Shown here piece by piece: positions 2,591 through 41,360 of a stretch of DNA of 64,000 nt. The notes below the pieces were generated by a model. It had not been told where the DNA came from and ran no database searches. It worked only from the letters and a program-made list of their open reading frames with translations. Position numbers and translations under genes: made by a program. The first letter of the stretch is position 1. Each line of letters begins with the position of its first letter. This stretch comes from Sinomicrobium oceani (GTDB taxonomy: Bacteria > Bacteroidota > Bacteroidia > Flavobacteriales > Flavobacteriaceae): contig NZ_FPJE01000004.1 in assembly GCF_900119185.1 (NCBI RefSeq), forward strand, positions 62,001 through 126,000, in the 5' to 3' direction.

Positions 2591-3376
2591 ATGGATGAAT
2601 ACAAGAATATTTACGTAGAAGAAGATGACGGAATAGCCTTTATTACCATAGACCGTCCTTCGAAACTCAACGCACTCAACAGGGAAACAATAGCCGAACT
2701 GCACGAGGCTTTTAAAGAGCTTGACGAAGATCGGGAGATCAGGGTTATTATCATTACCGGAAGCGGTGAGAAAGCTTTCGTGGCAGGTGCCGATATCTCT
2801 GAATTTTCGGATTTTTCGGTAAAAGAAGGCGGGGCGCTTGCCGCAAAAGGACAGGAAGTGCTTTTCGACTTTATAGAAAATCTGTCTACCCCGGTGATCG
2901 CTGCTGTAAACGGTTTTGCCCTGGGTGGCGGATTGGAACTTGCCATGGCCTGCCATTTTCGTATAGCATCGCACAATGCCAAAATGGGGTTGCCCGAAGT
3001 GTCTCTGGGTGTGATCCCGGGATACGGTGGTACGCAGCGACTTCCTCAGTTGGTCGGTAAAGGAAAAGCTATGGAGATGATTATGACTGCGGGAATGATC
3101 AATGCAGAGGAAGCCAAGAGCTATGGGTTGGTCAATCACATGGTGGCACAGGAAGAGTTGCTGGATTATTGTGAAAGCATAGCGCGTAAGATCATTAAGA
3201 ATTCAGGAGTGGCCATAGCGGCGGCTATCCGGGCTATAAATGCCGGTTATAAGGATGGTATGGACGGTTACCGGGCCGAGATCGAAGCCTTTGGGAATTG
3301 CTTTGGCACCGAAGATTTCAAAGAAGGGACTACGGCATTCCTGGAAAAGAGAAAAGCAGATTTTCCGGGAAAATAA
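2591..3376 (+). CDS. enoyl-CoA hydratase / 3-hydroxybutyryl-CoA dehydratase (crotonase family)
   Basis: 261 residues when started at the ATG at 2591, four bases after the kinase stop; a start 16 codons upstream would lie inside the kinase gene and adds a non-conserved Lys/Asn-rich stretch. Crotonase fold with both catalytic glutamates of true hydratases: Glu116 in GGGLELAMAC and Glu136 in LPEVSLG. The oxyanion-hole glycines lie in the GADIS and GFALGGG segments. It hydrates trans-2-enoyl-CoA in beta-oxidation or short-chain acyl-CoA metabolism in the cytoplasm. Close spacing implies co-transcription with the kinase, although no functional link is obvious. A strong terminator follows. Confidence 0.85.
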   Translation: MDEYKNIYVEEDDGIAFITIDRPSKLNALNRETIAELHEAFKELDEDREIRVIIITGSGEKAFVAGADISEFSDFSVKEGGALAAKGQEVLFDFIENLSTPVIAAVNGFALGGGLELAMACHFRIASHNAKMGLPEVSLGVIPGYGGTQRLPQLVGKGKAMEMIMTAGMINAEEAKSYGLVNHMVAQEELLDYCESIARKIIKNSGVAIAAAIRAINAGYKDGMDGYRAEIEAFGNCFGTEDFKEGTTAFLEKRKADFPGK

Positions 3377-3388
3377 AGAGCATATCGG

Positions 3389-3422
3389 GCTGCAAAAAGA
3401 CGTAAGTTTTGCAGCTTTTTTT
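3389..3422 (+). terminator. Rho-independent terminator after the crotonase gene
   Basis: Nine-base-pair stem GCTGCAAAA / TTTTGCAGC (3389-3397 with 3407-3415), nine-base loop, followed directly by a run of seven T. It separates the first gene group from the efflux operon. Confidence 0.85.
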
Positions 3423-3626
3423 CTTTCCAGAACCGGTGAAAGGACCTCTTTTTTTTCTACATACAAAACGCCGGTTTTTTGTTTTTGCTTTTTTACGTCG
3501 ATAAAATTTTACTTTCCGTATAGAGAATTTTGGCAAACGTCTATCCCTGTTTGTTTTCGGCATAATTAGTACGTCTTTAGTTCTGTAATTAAGAGCTGGT
3601 ATACAGTGTCTTAAAAATAATACCGA

Positions 3627-4946
3627 ATGAAAAGACTTATTGTTATGACCCTGTTTTTGCTGGGAGTAAATGCAGGATTAATTGCACAGGATGATGGGAT
3701 AAAATGGTCGTTACAGGATTGTATAGATCATGCCGTTGAGAATAATATCACCATCAAAGAAGCAGCTTTGGACAAGGCTGGCGCTGAAGTGGATTACGAA
3801 GAATCCAAAATGTCACGATTACCCAATCTGTCCGGAAGCGTGTCGCAGAGTTTAACCAGCGGTAGCAGTATAGATCCCATTACCAGTGATTTTGTCTCTC
3901 AGAATATATACGCTACCAGTTTGGGGCTGAATTCATCGGTCACCCTGTTCCAGGGAAACCAGATCAACAACCAGATAAAAAGAAGCAGGTTGCTGGTTGA
4001 TGGTAACTCCTTTTATATGGAGGAAGCGAAGAACAATGTGGTTCTCAGTATTACCGAAGCCTATCTGCAGGCTTTGTATAATAAGGAGTCTATAGTTATA
4101 GCCGAAAATACGCTTGCCTCAGCGGAGAAAGAAGAAGCTCGTGCTAAAGCCAGGTACGATGCCGGTGATATAGCGATCAAGGATTATACCGATGCACAAT
4201 CGCAATCTGCCTCTTTCCGATACGATTTTATAGCAGCAAAAAACAACTACGCACAGCAGGTGCTTACCTTGAAGCAATTGCTTGAACTGGGACCGGAAGT
4301 CGATTTTGATATCGAAACTAAGGAAGTGGAAGCTGTGCCTTCACTGGTGCCGGATAAAATCGAAGTATATACTACTGCCCTGGAAAAAATGCCGGAAATA
4401 GGAGGTAGTAAAAATGATGTTGAGGTTGCGGAAAAGAGCCTGGACATTGCCAAAGGGGCCTATTTGCCAACCTTGTCTCTTACCGGGGGTTTAGGTTCCG
4501 GGTATACCAATACACAAGATCTGAATTTTAACGATCAGTTGGATGTTAATTTTTACAAAAGAGTAGGACTCTCTCTTTCCATTCCCATTTTCCAGAGATA
4601 TTCCACCAAAGCACAGGTAGCAAATGCCAAAATAGATATAGAGAAAGCCAAACTCTCCCTGAACACTAAAGAAAAGGAATTGTATAAAAAAGTGGAGACT
4701 GCATGGCTGAATGCCATAGCGTATCAGGAGCAATTAGAGGCCTTGAGGGTGGCGCGGGATGCGGCGCAAAAATCGTACGAGCTGGCACAGAAACAATATG
4801 AGCTTGGTGGATTGAGCACCGTGGATCTGGTGGTAAGCCAGAATACGTATGTCAATGCAGCGCAAAAATATACACAGACAAAATATTTAAGGCTGTTATA
4901 CAGCCAATTACTCGAATTCTATCAGGGAAACGATATTAAAATTTAA
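3627..4946 (+). CDS. TolC-family outer membrane efflux protein
   Basis: 439 residues with a Sec signal peptide (about 1-21, ending in LIAQ). The rest is the OEP repeat pattern: long amphipathic coiled-coil helices (for example about 140-215 and 345-420) separated by beta-strand segments, with the two halves related to each other as in TolC. It forms the outer-membrane channel of a tripartite exporter. It is the first gene of a run that continues with the adaptor (5-base gap), ABC ATPase and permease, so this is the channel for the MacAB-like pump. The 250-base leader region contains no exact TAnnTTTG promoter that I could identify. Confidence 0.9.
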   Translation: MKRLIVMTLFLLGVNAGLIAQDDGIKWSLQDCIDHAVENNITIKEAALDKAGAEVDYEESKMSRLPNLSGSVSQSLTSGSSIDPITSDFVSQNIYATSLGLNSSVTLFQGNQINNQIKRSRLLVDGNSFYMEEAKNNVVLSITEAYLQALYNKESIVIAENTLASAEKEEARAKARYDAGDIAIKDYTDAQSQSASFRYDFIAAKNNYAQQVLTLKQLLELGPEVDFDIETKEVEAVPSLVPDKIEVYTTALEKMPEIGGSKNDVEVAEKSLDIAKGAYLPTLSLTGGLGSGYTNTQDLNFNDQLDVNFYKRVGLSLSIPIFQRYSTKAQVANAKIDIEKAKLSLNTKEKELYKKVETAWLNAIAYQEQLEALRVARDAAQKSYELAQKQYELGGLSTVDLVVSQNTYVNAAQKYTQTKYLRLLYSQLLEFYQGNDIKI

Positions 4947-4951
4947 GAATC

Positions 4952-6181
4952 ATGAAAAGTAAAAAGGCAAAAATAATCATAACAGGGCTTGTAGTAATTC
5001 TTGGTGTTATAGCATTTTTCCTGTTTTCGGGAAGTGGAAAAATCAATGTAGAGATACAGACAGTCCCGGTGGCCAAAGGAAAAGTAGTTACCGAAGTTAC
5101 GGCAACAGGTACTGTAGAGCCTATTATACAGGTCGAAGTAGGTACCCAGGTGTCCGGGGTAGTCGAGAAGATTTATGTGGATTATAACAGTGAGGTAAAA
5201 GAAGGACAACTTATAGCCGAACTGGATAAAGTGAGCCTTAAAGCATCGCTATCCGATGCTCAGGCGAGTTATAACAATGCCATTAATGAAAAAAGCTACC
5301 GGGAGCAAATTTACAACCGGCAGAAAGAACTTTATGAGAACCAGGTGATAAGCCGTTCCGATTACGATGAAGCCGTATACAATTATACCAATGCTAAAAA
5401 TACGGTTACACAAAGGCTGTCCGATCTGGAAAGAGCAAAAGCCAATCTGGGGTATGCCAATATCTATTCGCCTATAGATGGAGTCGTGCTTTCGAGAGAT
5501 GTGGACGAAGGGCAGACCGTGGCAGCGAGTTATAGTACTCCTACTCTATTCACCATAGCCAAGGATCTTAAAGAGATGCAGGTAGAAGCTGATGTGGATG
5601 AAGCTGATATAGGAGAGGTTAAGGAAGGACAGCGAGTTACTTTTACGGTAGATGCCTATCAGGGCGTGCTGTTTAACGGGGAGGTAACCCAGGTACGTCT
5701 CAACCCTACCACAGCGTCCAATGTGGTTACCTATACCGTAGTAATTAAGGCAGATAATCCGGATCTTAAACTCAAGCCCGGACTTACTGCTACTATTTCT
5801 ATCTATACTTTAGAGTTAAGTGATGTGTTGACATTGGAGGCTAAAGCAGTGAATTTTCGACCGGATCCGGCTGTGCTTGGTACCTATGCGGAGCAGCAGG
5901 GTAAGGAGCCAATGCAACGACCAGAGCCGGGGACCAAAGGACCTTCCGCACCAGATGAAGATGCGGTAGTAGTATGGGTGGCGGAGAATGGGAATATCCG
6001 TCCGGTCACGGTTACTCTCGGGGCCAGTGATGGTGTTCATGTACAAGTGCTCGACGGACTTCAGGAAGGCGATAGCGTGGTATACCATATAGAAGTGCTT
6101 CAAAAAGGATCCGGAACCAGTAGCAGTGCAGAGGACAGCAGCAGCCCTTTCATGCCTAAACCTCCCGGAAAAAGAAAGTAG
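4952..6181 (+). CDS. periplasmic adaptor (membrane fusion protein) of a MacA-type ABC exporter
   Basis: 409 residues. One N-terminal membrane anchor (about 7-26), then the biotinyl-lipoyl-like half motif (VEVGTQVSGVVEKIYV), a coiled-coil hairpin (about 95-170), the second lipoyl half (YSPIDGVVLSRDVDEGQTV), a beta-barrel domain (about 205-290) and a membrane-proximal domain. The C-terminal region has a Pro/Ser-rich insertion (about 310-330) and tail. This order is that of HlyD/MacA adaptors that bridge an inner-membrane ABC transporter to a TolC channel. It sits between the TolC gene (5 bases) and the ATPase gene (49 bases), which supports the MacA role. Confidence 0.88.
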   Translation: MKSKKAKIIITGLVVILGVIAFFLFSGSGKINVEIQTVPVAKGKVVTEVTATGTVEPIIQVEVGTQVSGVVEKIYVDYNSEVKEGQLIAELDKVSLKASLSDAQASYNNAINEKSYREQIYNRQKELYENQVISRSDYDEAVYNYTNAKNTVTQRLSDLERAKANLGYANIYSPIDGVVLSRDVDEGQTVAASYSTPTLFTIAKDLKEMQVEADVDEADIGEVKEGQRVTFTVDAYQGVLFNGEVTQVRLNPTTASNVVTYTVVIKADNPDLKLKPGLTATISIYTLELSDVLTLEAKAVNFRPDPAVLGTYAEQQGKEPMQRPEPGTKGPSAPDEDAVVVWVAENGNIRPVTVTLGASDGVHVQVLDGLQEGDSVVYHIEVLQKGSGTSSSAEDSSSPFMPKPPGKRK

Positions 6182-6230
6182 TTTTTTGGGAATTAGACGG
6201 AGCGTTTAGTTAACAACAAAAGAAAAGAGG

Positions 6231-6971
6231 ATGAAAAATATCATAGATATAAAAGATCTGAAACGCCACTTTGTGATGGGAGAAGAGACCGTGCATGCAC
6301 TAAAAGGTATTTCGTATACTATCGAAGAAGGAGAGTTCGTCACTATTATGGGGTCGAGTGGGTCCGGTAAAAGTACGATGCTCAATATTCTGGGGTGTCT
6401 CGATCAGCCTTCTTCGGGAAGGTATGCCATAGATGGTATAGCGGTAAAAGATTTGAGTCGCAATGCTCTTGCGGAGATACGTAACGAAAAAATAGGTTTT
6501 ATTTTTCAGGCATATAACCTGTTGCCAAGAACTACTGCCGTAGAAAATGCAGAACTACCCCTGTTGTACAATTCATCTGTATCGTCTGCAGAGCGGAGAG
6601 AACGAGCCATAGAAGCGTTGACAAAAGTTGGTTTAAGTGAAAGATTATACCATACACCTTCACAATTATCTGGTGGGCAGCAACAGCGCGTAGCAATTGC
6701 ACGTGCTCTGGTAAATGATCCGGTAGTTATTCTTGCCGATGAGGCCACCGGGAACCTGGACACCCGTACGTCTTATGAAATCATGGCTCTTTTTCAGGAA
6801 CTCAATGCCGCAGGGAAAACCATAGTTTTCGTAACCCATGAGCCCGATATAGCAATGTTTAGTAACCGCACCATAGTTTTAAAGGACGGTACCATTATAA
6901 AAGACAGTGTCAACGATAAGGTGCTGAGTGCATCCGGGGCCCTGGCGGCCATGCCTAAAGAAGAAGATTGA
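6231..6971 (+). CDS. ABC transporter ATP-binding protein, MacB/LolD type
   Basis: 246 residues, a complete nucleotide-binding domain: Walker [10 protein letters not shown] (41-49), Q-loop Gln93, signature LSGGQ (146-150), Walker B ending in Asp170-Glu171 and switch His203. The wording of the motifs ([12 protein letters not shown]-type region, DEATGNLD) is that of the MacB/LolD/FtsE class, which pairs with MacB/FtsX-like permeases rather than importers. Unlike E. coli MacB, where the ATPase and permease are fused, here they are separate genes one base apart. Role: drives the tripartite exporter encoded by its neighbours. Confidence 0.92.
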
Positions 6972-38438: not shown

Positions 38439-40010
38439 CTAAAACCTAAAACTAAAGCCTGTATATACGCCAAATGTATACGGTCGGAAACCGCCGTTGT
38501 CATTGGAGAATGTATTCCATTGATATTTGAACATGGGTTCCAGTTGCAACTGGAGTTTGTCGGATAGGAGATAATCTACTCCGAGTCCTACATTGGTGCT
38601 GAAATTGACATTGTTCACATTGTTGGCTTCACCAAGTTCTGTGGCAATCGCATCTGATTTGAGCAGAATCGTATTGTCCGTAAGGAATAAGGAACTTACC
38701 CCGCCTATCAGGTTGAGCCCGAATCTTTCGTTTAATATCCTGTACTTCAATTCCATCGGAACCTCAATATAGCCGAATTCCTGTTGCATGGCGCCTTCCT
38801 GTGGGGCAAGGCTTGTTGTAACTTCTTGCTTCCCCGGCATAGCGGGGTCTGCAGGGCTATTGGCTACATACAGCCCGGAAGCCCTTTCGGATTGTCGGGC
38901 GTAATTAATGTTACTAAGCGACCTGGCCTCGAAATTCGGAGCAAAAGAAATGTCGTTGGTGTCATAGCCGTAATTGACCTTGTTGATACCGGAACGTAAA
39001 CTCAACCTGTCGTTGACCTGGTAGGCGACATTAACCCCGTAGCTGAGGTTGACCTTCCCGGATTTGGAATTGCTTTTGAATTCCGGATCGATTGGCGATC
39101 CGCTACTGATCGAATTATAATACACGGGAGCGATATTTGGATTTAAGCTCCATTTTTTGTGCTCCCCGTCTCCCGATGCCAGTTCTTTTTCGCGTTCTGC
39201 TTCATTCTCCATTTCGGCAATCGCTTCAAGCAGGGATTTTTTATTTTCTTCCTCTTTATTACGGATATCTTTTTGCTCCTTTTCCGCAACGCTGATTGTG
39301 TTGTTGTTCTGCCCGGTTACGTGGTTCGGGTGTTCGGCCACAGTGCTTTTTTGCGATGCGATAACCTGTCCGGAAGTGCTATTATCCGGATTGTGCTGTG
39401 TCGTAGGGTTACCATTTTCTACCAGCTTCTCATTTTCCTGAGTATGATGAGAAGGGGTGGTTTGTCGTACGGCTATTCCCGTTTCATTTTTGGAAGTGCT
39501 GTATTGTTGTGTTTTCGTATTGCCTGCTTTAGCCTGGCTGTTGTTATTTTGTAAAGTTGTTCCGGCTGTATTATCCGATGTGTCCGGAGAGGCTGTGAAG
39601 CGTTCGGTAGTGGTGACCGGGTTGCTTTTTTCTTTCTCTTCCCGGGTATTATTGTCCGGATTGGATATGTATTCTTCTGCAGACCTGGTGGCTTCGTCGC
39701 CCGGCCGTGTTTTTTGTTCCGGGTGTTCCCGGGTAATTTTTTCAAGCGGATCCATGTCGGGCGATTCCGGATCTGTAAATACCAGGTTAAAGCCTATGGA
39801 CAATAGCAGGGCTATAGTGGCGGCTATACCTCCCAAACGCCACCAAAAGAAAGGGATAGTCCTTCCGTCTTTTTTCGGGGCTTCGGCAGGAAGGGTTGAA
39901 GGTGCATTGAGCTTGGCTTCGATTCCGGACCATAAATCCTTCTCCGGAAAAGCTTCAAAATCCTTGAATTTTTCCTGGAAAAGTCTGTCTATGTTTTTTT
40001 TGTCGCCCAT
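38439..40010 (-). CDS. inner-membrane-anchored protein with C-terminal outer-membrane beta-barrel domain
   Basis: 523 residues in four parts. Residues 1-55 are cytoplasmic and charged (IDRLFQEKFKDFEAFPEKDLW). Residues about 57-78 form one membrane helix; there is no cleavable signal. Residues 80-275 are a low-complexity Asn/Thr/Gln/Glu linker ending in a strongly charged coiled coil. Residues about 285-523 are an OMP_b-brl-type barrel with alternating strands and the terminal GFSFRF. It starts 4 bases after the stop of the ECF sigma gene, so it occupies the place of an anti-sigma factor. Such N-anchored barrel proteins occur beside sigma factors in Bacteroidota; the mechanism is not established. 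Confidence 0.8.
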   Translation of the reverse strand: MGDKKNIDRLFQEKFKDFEAFPEKDLWSGIEAKLNAPSTLPAEAPKKDGRTIPFFWWRLGGIAATIALLLSIGFNLVFTDPESPDMDPLEKITREHPEQKTRPGDEATRSAEEYISNPDNNTREEKEKSNPVTTTERFTASPDTSDNTAGTTLQNNNSQAKAGNTKTQQYSTSKNETGIAVRQTTPSHHTQENEKLVENGNPTTQHNPDNSTSGQVIASQKSTVAEHPNHVTGQNNNTISVAEKEQKDIRNKEEENKKSLLEAIAEMENEAEREKELASGDGEHKKWSLNPNIAPVYYNSISSGSPIDPEFKSNSKSGKVNLSYGVNVAYQVNDRLSLRSGINKVNYGYDTNDISFAPNFEARSLSNINYARQSERASGLYVANSPADPAMPGKQEVTTSLAPQEGAMQQEFGYIEVPMELKYRILNERFGLNLIGGVSSLFLTDNTILLKSDAIATELGEANNVNNVNFSTNVGLGVDYLLSDKLQLQLEPMFKYQWNTFSNDNGGFRPYTFGVYTGFSFRF

Positions 40011-40014
40011 TAAT

Positions 40015-40557
40015 TTATAGTGACTTCACTTTTTTTTTATTTAGATCCTCTTCGATATAAGATTTGAGGATCGTTCTTGATCTGGATAGATTGGATTTGG
40101 ATGTGCCTTCGGAAACGCCCAGCATTTCGGAAATTTCCTTGTGCGAGTATCCGTCCAATACGTATAAGTTAAAGGTTAACCTGTATTTATCCGGAAGCTT
40201 TTGTATAAGGCTGAGGAGATAATCGAGACTGATATCTTCTTCCTCGATCTCCACTTCTATTTCGTCTTCAATGTCATCCGGGACAATATTAAACACCTTT
40301 TCTTTCCTGTACTTCTGAAGGACCGTATTTACGGTTACTCTGCGAATCCATCCTTCAAAAGAACCTTTGAAATGATACTTGCCGATCTTGTCAAATATGG
40401 CCAAAAAGCTATCCTGCAGATTATCTTCCGCCTCTGTCTGGTTACGGGAATATTTAAGGCAAATGCTGTATAATTTACTGCTGAATAAGCGGTATAACTG
40501 CTCTTGCGCTTTTCTATCCCGATCCTTGCACCGGTTTATGAGTTCCTCTAAACTCAC
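40015..40557 (-). CDS. ECF-type RNA polymerase sigma factor
   Basis: 180 residues: sigma-2 region about 10-80 (YSICLKYSRNQTEAEDNLQDSFLAIF, the acidic DNLQD core contact; FEGWIRRVTVNTVLQKYRK) and sigma-4 region about 110-170 with the helix-turn-helix GYSHKEISEMLGVSEGTSKSNLSRSR. It directs transcription of a specific, unknown regulon. The downstream barrel gene starts 4 bases away. A perfect 14-base inverted repeat lies upstream between this gene and the preceding lipoprotein gene. Confidence 0.93.
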   Translation of the reverse strand: MSLEELINRCKDRDRKAQEQLYRLFSSKLYSICLKYSRNQTEAEDNLQDSFLAIFDKIGKYHFKGSFEGWIRRVTVNTVLQKYRKEKVFNIVPDDIEDEIEVEIEEEDISLDYLLSLIQKLPDKYRLTFNLYVLDGYSHKEISEMLGVSEGTSKSNLSRSRTILKSYIEEDLNKKKVKSL

Positions 40558-40630
40558 TTATATAGTCTGCGTTAGTTTTGGTTCCCTTGTCAAAATCGGA
40601 ATGGATTGAACATGTGATCTGATGTTATTT

Positions 40631-40697
40631 CATTTTTCCGGATGAAGAAATTGATGTGTTTCCTGTCCGATAATCTTTCCGTACATCCGGAAAAATG
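40631..40697. repeat. perfect 14-bp inverted repeat upstream of the sigma factor gene
   Basis: CATTTTTCCGGATG (40631-40644) and its exact reverse complement (40684-40697), 39 bases apart, 74 bases before the sigma gene start. No T tract follows on either strand, which speaks against a simple terminator; it could be an operator for a dimeric regulator or a cruciform/RNA hairpin. Confidence 0.7.
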
Positions 40698-40768
40698 AGG
40701 CTATGCCTTCCTGTATTCCTTTTTTCTTTAAAGGTACTGGTTAATTCGGTTATGGTTCCGGTGGTGGG

Positions 40769-41209
40769 TTATTCTTCTTCTTTTACCGGGATGTCCCTGG
40801 TTATAAAAGTGTACTCACCCTCACTGTCTACACCGGTAATAAAGCGAAGCTGGTAAGGTTGCTTGTATCTCACTTCAATGGCAAACTTGTGTTCTCTGGT
40901 TACGGACTGCGCGCCTTCGCATTCTTCGCCGGTCTGTGCCTGTGCTACGGCCCAGAAGGTTCTTCGCTGTATAGTGTCTCCGGTTTGCGTATCATTGCTG
41001 AAATCAATACCTATAAATTCATGACATGCACCTGGGATTGAGTATCGTATGGTGATAGAGTCTGTTTTGTTATACACAAGAGTATCGGGAGTCACTGCAC
41101 TTGAAATGGGGAGTGTGGTGTAGTAAAAGTTTGCGCCATCATCATTCAAGCATCCGGATAAAGACAGTACTAAGGTTAAAAATACTGCGGCAATACTTAC
41201 TTTTTTCAT
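40769..41209 (-). CDS. small predicted lipoprotein (unrecognised)
   Basis: 146 residues. Lipoprotein signal MKKVSIAAVFLTLVLSLSGC with Cys20, followed by LNDDGANF, so Asp at +3/+4 and likely outer membrane. The mature part is beta-rich with four other Cys-containing positions or fewer (GACHEF, EECEGA), suggesting an immunoglobulin-like fold stabilised by a disulphide. I do not recognise a family. It sits on the same strand between recA and the sigma factor gene, separated from each by about 210 bases. Confidence 0.75.
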   Translation of the reverse strand: MKKVSIAAVFLTLVLSLSGCLNDDGANFYYTTLPISSAVTPDTLVYNKTDSITIRYSIPGACHEFIGIDFSNDTQTGDTIQRRTFWAVAQAQTGEECEGAQSVTREHKFAIEVRYKQPYQLRFITGVDSEGEYTFITRDIPVKEEE

Positions 41210-41360
41210 ACTAATTCTGTTTAATTTTTAGGAGGTTTATAATTAAAAGCTTGTTTATTATTTCTGTCGCTATTTACTTCTCTTAGTATAAAACACCTTT
41301 TTGAGGTGTATTATTCAACAAAAAGATGCATGGTTTTATATTAGGTTGCGTTAGAGATAA

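Follow-up and report, generated by a model that had tools for sequence, protein, structure and literature searches.

Sigma factors of the extracytoplasmic function (ECF) class that are paired with an envelope-spanning anti-sigma factor are a published design, represented by Reo (partner EcfO) and Dma (partner Das). Reo of Phocaeicola vulgatus, first described as an "unusual" anti-sigma factor, was predicted to span the periplasm and to carry a C-terminal outer-membrane barrel, with EcfO as its partner; the EcfO regulon, which includes three NigD genes, rises when a transposon disrupts the anti-sigma gene or when cells meet the toxin BcpT (PMC9308784, PMC13114119). Dma1 and Dma2 of Bacteroides thetaiotaomicron consist of a head, a single helix, a long disordered tether and a C-terminal barrel, and they control Das sigma factors and vesicle output, Dma1-Das1 via nigD1; loss of Dma2 is reported to raise the das2 operon (PMC13088901). 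Both systems were described in gut Bacteroidales and tied to outer-membrane stress and vesicle output, where the function of NigD is unknown and the signal unclear (PMC9308784, PMC13114119, PMC13088901). Here we analyse a 64,000-nucleotide (nt) stretch of Sinomicrobium oceani (contig NZ_FPJE01000004.1, positions 62,001 to 126,000), hereafter the window, in which genes for a lipoprotein, an ECF sigma factor and a barrel protein follow each other on the reverse strand. We put the probability at roughly 85% that this recA-linked cassette is the Flavobacteriaceae counterpart of EcfO-Reo and Das-Dma, with the barrel protein as a dual-membrane-spanning anti-sigma factor. A preceding sequence-only reading of the same DNA knew of no established mechanism for such a pair, a view that the reported effects of anti-sigma loss in P. 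vulgatus and B. thetaiotaomicron contradict.

The sigma factor gene (40015..40557, reverse strand, GTG start) encodes 180 residues with sigma-70 regions 2 and 4 (PF04542, 7e-12; PF08281, 3e-16; TIGR02937, 3e-26) and is Das/EcfO-like by position. Only 4 bases separate its stop codon from the ATG of the barrel protein gene (38439..40010, reverse strand), which encodes 523 residues; open reading frames (ORFs) as well as Pfam and NCBIfam thus agree with the gene pair as first read. That reading had also suggested a survey for sigma-barrel pairs elsewhere, and they recur widely: we compared 109 homologous loci, 80 from a scan of named genomes (the nearest labelled Sinomicrobium) and 29 from relatives, and a related sigma gene was present in 107 of them. 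In the two others, the barrel protein starts late, at a contig end or gap. Leaving out these two and four loci with duplicate proteins gave 104 distinct pairs (103 plus the window); the distance between the two genes falls between -4 and +6 nt in 85 of these, and in 44 they overlap. Because a related sigma gene accompanies the barrel protein in 107 of 109 loci, with tight gaps in 85 of 104 pairs, the adjacency is not due to chance. recA lies upstream of the gene group in all 75 distinct named Flavobacteriaceae loci. The genome of S. oceani itself yielded 45 ECF-like sigma matches including the one in the window; among the 30 of these genes that were examined, a profile search found a barrel-type protein only behind the window sigma gene, while six had no ORF just downstream. 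One further sigma gene (L210) is followed by a 244-residue protein with a membrane helix and then by a 365-residue protein that matches a barrel profile weakly (E 0.002, short of the cut-off).

The architecture of the barrel protein corresponds to the Dma/Reo kind. According to an AlphaFold2 model built on 79 sequences, residues 1-36 (39903..40010, reverse strand, as all parts of the gene) form a conserved cytoplasmic head of two helices (5-18 and 26-35), presumed to be the sigma-binding module. Residues 55-77 (39780..39848) form the single inner-membrane helix, also indicated by the charge bias. It is followed by a disordered tether rich in Thr, Asn, Glu, Ser and Pro (residues 78-242, 39285..39779), with a predicted local confidence (pLDDT) below 50 for residues 79-244. 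Two helices (243-255 and 260-279) within residues 243-286 (39153..39284) directly precede a predicted 8-stranded OmpA-like outer-membrane barrel at residues 287-523 (38442..39152), which ends in Phe. The model contains eight long strands between residues 287 and 522, with a mean pLDDT per 10-residue block of 81-97 from residue 291 on, except for 56-75 at residues 371-400. Residues 314-446 match OMP_b-brl_2 (PF13568) above the cut-off (1.2e-7), and the best match of the model in the PDB is the OmpA barrel 9fzc (E 3e-8). A sequence profile of the protein found only weak matches to unrelated proteins in the PDB (best E 0.039). The single membrane helix and the outer-membrane-type C-terminal barrel of the sequence-only reading are therefore borne out, whereas its low-complexity or coiled-coil linker at residues 80-275 needs correction: disorder stops near residue 244 and the two helices take over.

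These features are shared by the homologues. Mean identity to the 103 homologues is 61% for the head, 46% for the membrane helix, 9% for the tether and 47% for the barrel. All 104 proteins have 43-58 residues ahead of the membrane helix, no apparent N-terminal signal sequence and a C-terminal Phe, and 100 of them show a positive-inside charge bias, as expected from the cytoplasmic, uncleaved N terminus that had been proposed. The stretch from helix to barrel (residues 78-286 in the window) comprises 104-298 residues, with a median of about 208. As a rule of thumb, an extended chain spans 0.36 nm per residue, so stretches of this length are able to cross the periplasm. The suggestion that one polypeptide could join the outer membrane to the sigma factor thus fits the architecture, the conserved pairing and the published picture of Reo and Dma.

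That the head would contact the sigma factor is suggested by its evolution. Divergence of the sigma factor correlates at 0.62 with that of the head vs 0.47 with that of the barrel (partial correlations 0.55 vs 0.34), which favours a head-sigma contact, short of proof. These values bear on another explanation, in which the barrel protein is an ordinary OmpA-like tether or structural protein, merely an operon-mate of the sigma gene, and the anti-sigma factor is another protein. The OmpA-like fold is compatible with such a role, sigma binding by the head is something that we infer, and no anti-sigma family in Pfam or NCBIfam matched the barrel protein above the cut-off (Pfam searches up to E 1 returned three barrel families only and no FecR domain). 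However, the head is the most conserved of the measured regions and co-varies with the sigma factor, published relatives work as anti-sigma factors, and similar heads occur after ECF sigma genes on proteins with quite different C termini, making this explanation very improbable.

The latter point stems from a profile search across the phylum, which gave matches in 79 of 394 genomes, although the low-complexity tether may account for some of the weaker ones. Among 40 distant stretches, 38 had a related sigma gene and 21 a profile-detectable barrel protein. In loci L170-L174, the sigma gene is followed by a protein in which a similar head and helix are joined to a Plug-vWA part; two of these proteins (L170 and L171), which adjoin an ECF sigma gene, also end in a type IX secretion tail and could possibly be anchored in the inner membrane with a surface-secreted end. 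Four loci (L177, L178, L181 and L182) show a split form consisting of the sigma gene, a gene for an anti-sigma-like protein of 254-283 residues and a separate outer-membrane barrel gene, with one of the four barrel matches falling below the family cut-off. A further locus, L194, contains two tandem pairs of sigma factor and barrel anti-sigma factor (2711-4416 and 4577-6318).

A candidate promoter stands before the cassette. At 41323..41351 on the reverse strand, about 115 nt before the start of the lipoprotein gene, we found a predicted ECF-type element composed of ACGCAACC (-35), a 15-nt spacer and CATCTT (-10), which is the sole exact copy of RCGCAACC-N15-YATCTW in the window. The consensus ACGCAACC-N15-YATCTA was derived by comparing the DNA upstream of the lipoprotein genes. 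Its core, GCAACC-N15-CATCT, occurs in 83 of 104 upstream regions, vs 0.005 expected per shuffled set. At a threshold of at least 11 of 14 positions, the promoter was detected in 98 of 104 upstream regions and in 94 of the 95 that are 850 nt or longer, compared to 10 of 2080 regions shuffled by mononucleotide; in the lone exception among the 95 (L071), the spacing is shifted. No description of the promoter was found in the literature, which was searched by topic and not by motif letters, and the string GCAAC was not found in PMC9723704, the one paper searched for it.

Copies of the promoter extend beyond the cassette in related bacteria. A strict form had 116 copies in 60 genomes of the family, compared to a single one for a reversed control pattern; it occurred in 42 of the 49 genomes that have Dma and in none of the 11 that lack it (Fisher p 9e-8, a value that ignores relatedness and genome size). 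Fewer sites are expected in the Dma-less set anyway, because nine of these 11 genomes are small (1.6-2.6 Mb). Presence of Dma was scored by a single-protein search (E<=1e-3) for 29 genomes (G000-G036) and by a profile (E<=1e-5) for the other 31; genome G021, with one weak match (8.7e-4), was counted among the 11. None of 29 genomes at the level of the order contained the strict promoter. In the DNA examined, 108 distinct copies were distinguished. Sixteen of them had no ORF of at least 60 residues starting within 350 nt, 16 preceded the cassette lipoprotein gene, eight stood directly before the sigma gene, 13 before a gene for a rhodanese-like protein (MQLYN start) and 55 before other genes. 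Among these 55 other targets, for which the -10 element and the start codon lie a median of 25 nt apart, 30 passed a strict lipoprotein rule, eight a signal-peptide rule and 17 neither, although several of the 17 look lipoprotein-like by eye. The share of lipoprotein signals, 30 of 55, compares with 71 of 774 background genes, the rules being crude and the background drawn from recA-neighbour loci rather than whole genomes. Judged by these promoter copies, the switch in related bacteria appears to turn on genes for surface-displayed proteins. In one genus relative (L242), the promoter core lies 28 nt before a lipoprotein-like ORF of 413 residues that is serpin-like by eye.

A wider regulon in S. 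oceani itself was rejected as unproven. Its genome has four matches to the core promoter, and the one at the cassette alone is convincing: two others lie inside long ORFs, and one is located 58 nt before an ORF for a membrane protein and lacks the AC flank. Therefore, the wider regulon is drawn from the relatives. A similar site recurs in three members of the genus (G002, G003 and G005).

As ECF-like genes are numerous (45 matches in S. oceani alone), ACGCAACC-N15-YATCTA might be read by another ECF sigma factor, with the cassette as merely one of its targets. In Flavobacterium psychrophilum, the ECF motif SM6 was assigned to an ECF/anti-sigma pair and to YceA, a gene related to rhodanese (PMC9723704), and a gene resembling the YceA rhodanese follows 13 of the 108 promoter copies here. 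On the other hand, the motif is near-universal before the cassette and absent from the 11 Dma-less genomes of the family as well as from all 29 order-level genomes; we consider a foreign sigma factor unlikely. In the window, the rhodanese-like gene lies beyond recA. The 13 copies associated with this gene (L247, L252, L259, L296, L309, L318, L325, L329, L332, L337, L338, L345 and one more) sit 189-335 nt before it, and in several genomes such a copy is paired with the cassette's copy, which lies on the other strand at a distance of about 1.1 kb, suggesting that the rhodanese-side copies are situated across recA from the cassette. Their target may be a small gene or RNA that has escaped annotation.

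Several observations weigh against the cassette as a Dma/Reo-like switch with a regulon of its own. The pLDDT of the head reaches only about 67-81, and the presumed link to Dma1, Das1, Reo and EcfO is one of architecture and gene order. Since the split forms encode the barrel separately, a covalent link between head and barrel is not always needed. Seven of the 49 Dma genomes of the family, that of S. oceani included, are without a strict promoter copy, and a search of the S. oceani genome for the promoter allowing one mismatch gave four matches vs two for controls; as described above, the core search was convincing only at the cassette. At the order level, two genomes (G038 and G039) have a Dma-like match yet no strict copy, hence the motif is not tied to Dma beyond the family.

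The first gene of the cassette (40769..41209, reverse strand) encodes a predicted surface lipoprotein of 146 residues, with the lipid-carrying Cys20 followed by LNDDG. A lipoprotein gene is found upstream of the sigma gene in 72 of the 75 distinct named loci, 68 identified by BLAST and adjacency and four by inspection (L070, L098, L122 and L137). Across 65 aligned proteins, Cys20, Pro41, Cys62 and Cys97 are invariant. With the lipid Cys aligned, at least two of the six following residues are acidic in all 89 lipoproteins, and signals of this kind direct lipoproteins to the cell surface in Bacteroidetes (PMC5080379). The intergenic region between the lipoprotein and sigma genes measures 211 nt in the window vs mostly 10-70 nt in relatives, and it contains a perfect 15-nt inverted repeat with a 39-nt gap (40630-40644 and 40684-40698), possibly an inserted element or a regulatory structure.

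Whether this lipoprotein is a NigD protein was addressed by structure and by sequence. Its AlphaFold2 model is a confident beta-sandwich (pLDDT 91.6). Two of the best six matches by the VIA aligner are NigD-titled (3qwn, Z 6.8; 4pqx, Z 6.4), three are other Bacteroides or Parabacteroides proteins (5bmt, Z 7.5; 3k0y, 6.7; 3nqi, 6.6) and one is an unrelated protein (7q61, Z 6.5); Z values below 8 are weak on their own and may reflect merely a common arrangement. The five bacterial matches fall in the C-terminal half of their chains. With the same model, Foldseek returned nothing under E 0.018, and its hits were generic immunoglobulin-like folds, while a sequence profile against the PDB gave weak unrelated matches only (best E 0.34). 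The protein had no Pfam family at E<=1, PF17415 (NigD_C) was absent from the 25 of 28 Pfam families shown for the alignment of 65 members, and no match to NigD_C exceeded the cut-off in the S. oceani genome. Because the family model gives no match, an assignment to NigD by sequence was rejected and we do not class the lipoprotein as NigD; its likeness to NigD is weak and draws on the VIA aligner and gene order. Regarding the latter, we surveyed 22 NigD_C genes, which came from 13 genomes among 247 in the class, and in two of the 22 loci (L396 and L407) the gene stands directly before an ECF sigma gene and a 422-residue barrel anti-sigma factor, matching the arrangement in the window. A third locus (L406) also has NigD and a sigma factor, but the protein behind them, of 182 residues, shows no barrel match. 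Before the 22 genes, no copy of the Flavobacteriaceae motif stood out, as judged by eye and without statistics. By eye as well, several of these genes (L398, L399 and L404) share a different upstream element (TTTAACAAA ... TGCAGTA-like), which may be an EcfO-type promoter of Bacteroidales.

The constancy of the lipoprotein raises the question of its part in sensing. One idea is that the surface lipoprotein caps or plugs the barrel, so that its export state, and not barrel assembly, would be the signal. Its occurrence in nearly all named loci, the export-type acidic residues and the two further invariant cysteines are in line with this, as is the richness of the other targets in lipoproteins, which would close a feedback loop. 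The three remaining named loci (L089, L118 and L135), however, lack the lipoprotein and keep sigma gene, barrel gene and promoter, which there stands before the sigma gene; the contact between lipoprotein and barrel is putative, and in P. vulgatus NigD proteins figure as members of the regulon with no known function rather than as sensors (PMC9308784, PMC13114119). We therefore regard gating by the lipoprotein as doubtful. Offered as a tentative possibility is a three-part homeostat of surface lipoproteins: the exported lipoprotein would dock on the barrel and report that barrel assembly and lipoprotein export are both working, and its loss or displacement would lead to release of the sigma factor and, via ACGCAACC-N15-YATCTA, to expression of a regulon rich in surface lipoproteins. 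Similar heads would be reused in the phylum with Plug-vWA parts, which in two cases end in a type IX tail, and with separate barrels.

For the cassette as a Dma/Reo-like switch, we propose the following course of events. The cytoplasmic head would hold the sigma factor at the inner membrane, where the single predicted helix would anchor the protein, while the predicted tether would cross the periplasm and the predicted barrel would sit in the outer membrane. By analogy to the published relatives, the system most likely senses outer-membrane stress, and the signal would be a change at the outer membrane, most likely failed barrel assembly or damage by an envelope toxin, upon which the sigma factor might be set free, perhaps by proteolysis. 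Judged by the conservation of the promoter, free sigma factor would transcribe its own gene group from ACGCAACC-N15-YATCTA and, in many relatives, probably also further genes, about half or more of which would encode lipoproteins. The lipoprotein of the cassette would be a NigD-like product of the switch and might also partner the barrel.

These results place a Dma/Reo-like system at a fixed, recA-linked site across the sampled Flavobacteriaceae and add to it a conserved lipoprotein gene with weak NigD likeness and a precise candidate promoter. New here are the cassette next to recA, including its lipoprotein, the promoter and the likely lipoprotein-rich regulon in relatives. Together, cassette and promoter make the targets of the switch and the role of the lipoprotein testable in free-living relatives.

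In FecR-type cell-surface signalling, too, the state of the outer membrane controls an ECF sigma factor via an inner-membrane anti-sigma factor. That design places a separate TonB-dependent transporter in the outer membrane, whereas the window encodes a single chain in which no FecR domain was matched. The SM6 motif of F. psychrophilum resembles the window motif in being ECF-type, in belonging to the same family of bacteria and in the genes it goes with, which include an ECF/anti-sigma pair and a YceA rhodanese, but it is described by a CGT box at -10 and by type IX secretion genes (PMC9723704). NigD-like lipoproteins share with the lipoprotein of the cassette the acidic export-type residues and, in loci L396 and L407, the place before a sigma/barrel pair, the window protein being single-domain. 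EcfO-Reo of P. vulgatus and Bacteroides fragilis has a reported stress response, while the window system is known from sequence; its lipoprotein is a single domain of 146 residues without a Pfam NigD match, and its gene group is recA-linked, unlike EcfO-Reo. Both combine an ECF sigma factor with a large inner-membrane anti-sigma factor that carries an outer-membrane barrel, and in P. vulgatus the nigD gene M0N98_03762 is numbered beside the sigma gene (-03761) and the anti-sigma gene (-03760), which suggests the gene order of the window. The Das sigma factors of B. thetaiotaomicron are classed as ECF21 and their vesicle phenotype has been shown, whereas the window pair is known from its genes, and the Dma2 operon is said to be restricted to B. 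thetaiotaomicron and close relatives (PMC13088901). Das1-Dma1 and Das2-Dma2 nevertheless present the same layout as the window, namely a head, a single helix, a disordered tether and a barrel, encoded next to the sigma factor, and by this architecture and gene order the barrel protein belongs with the Dma/Reo kind.

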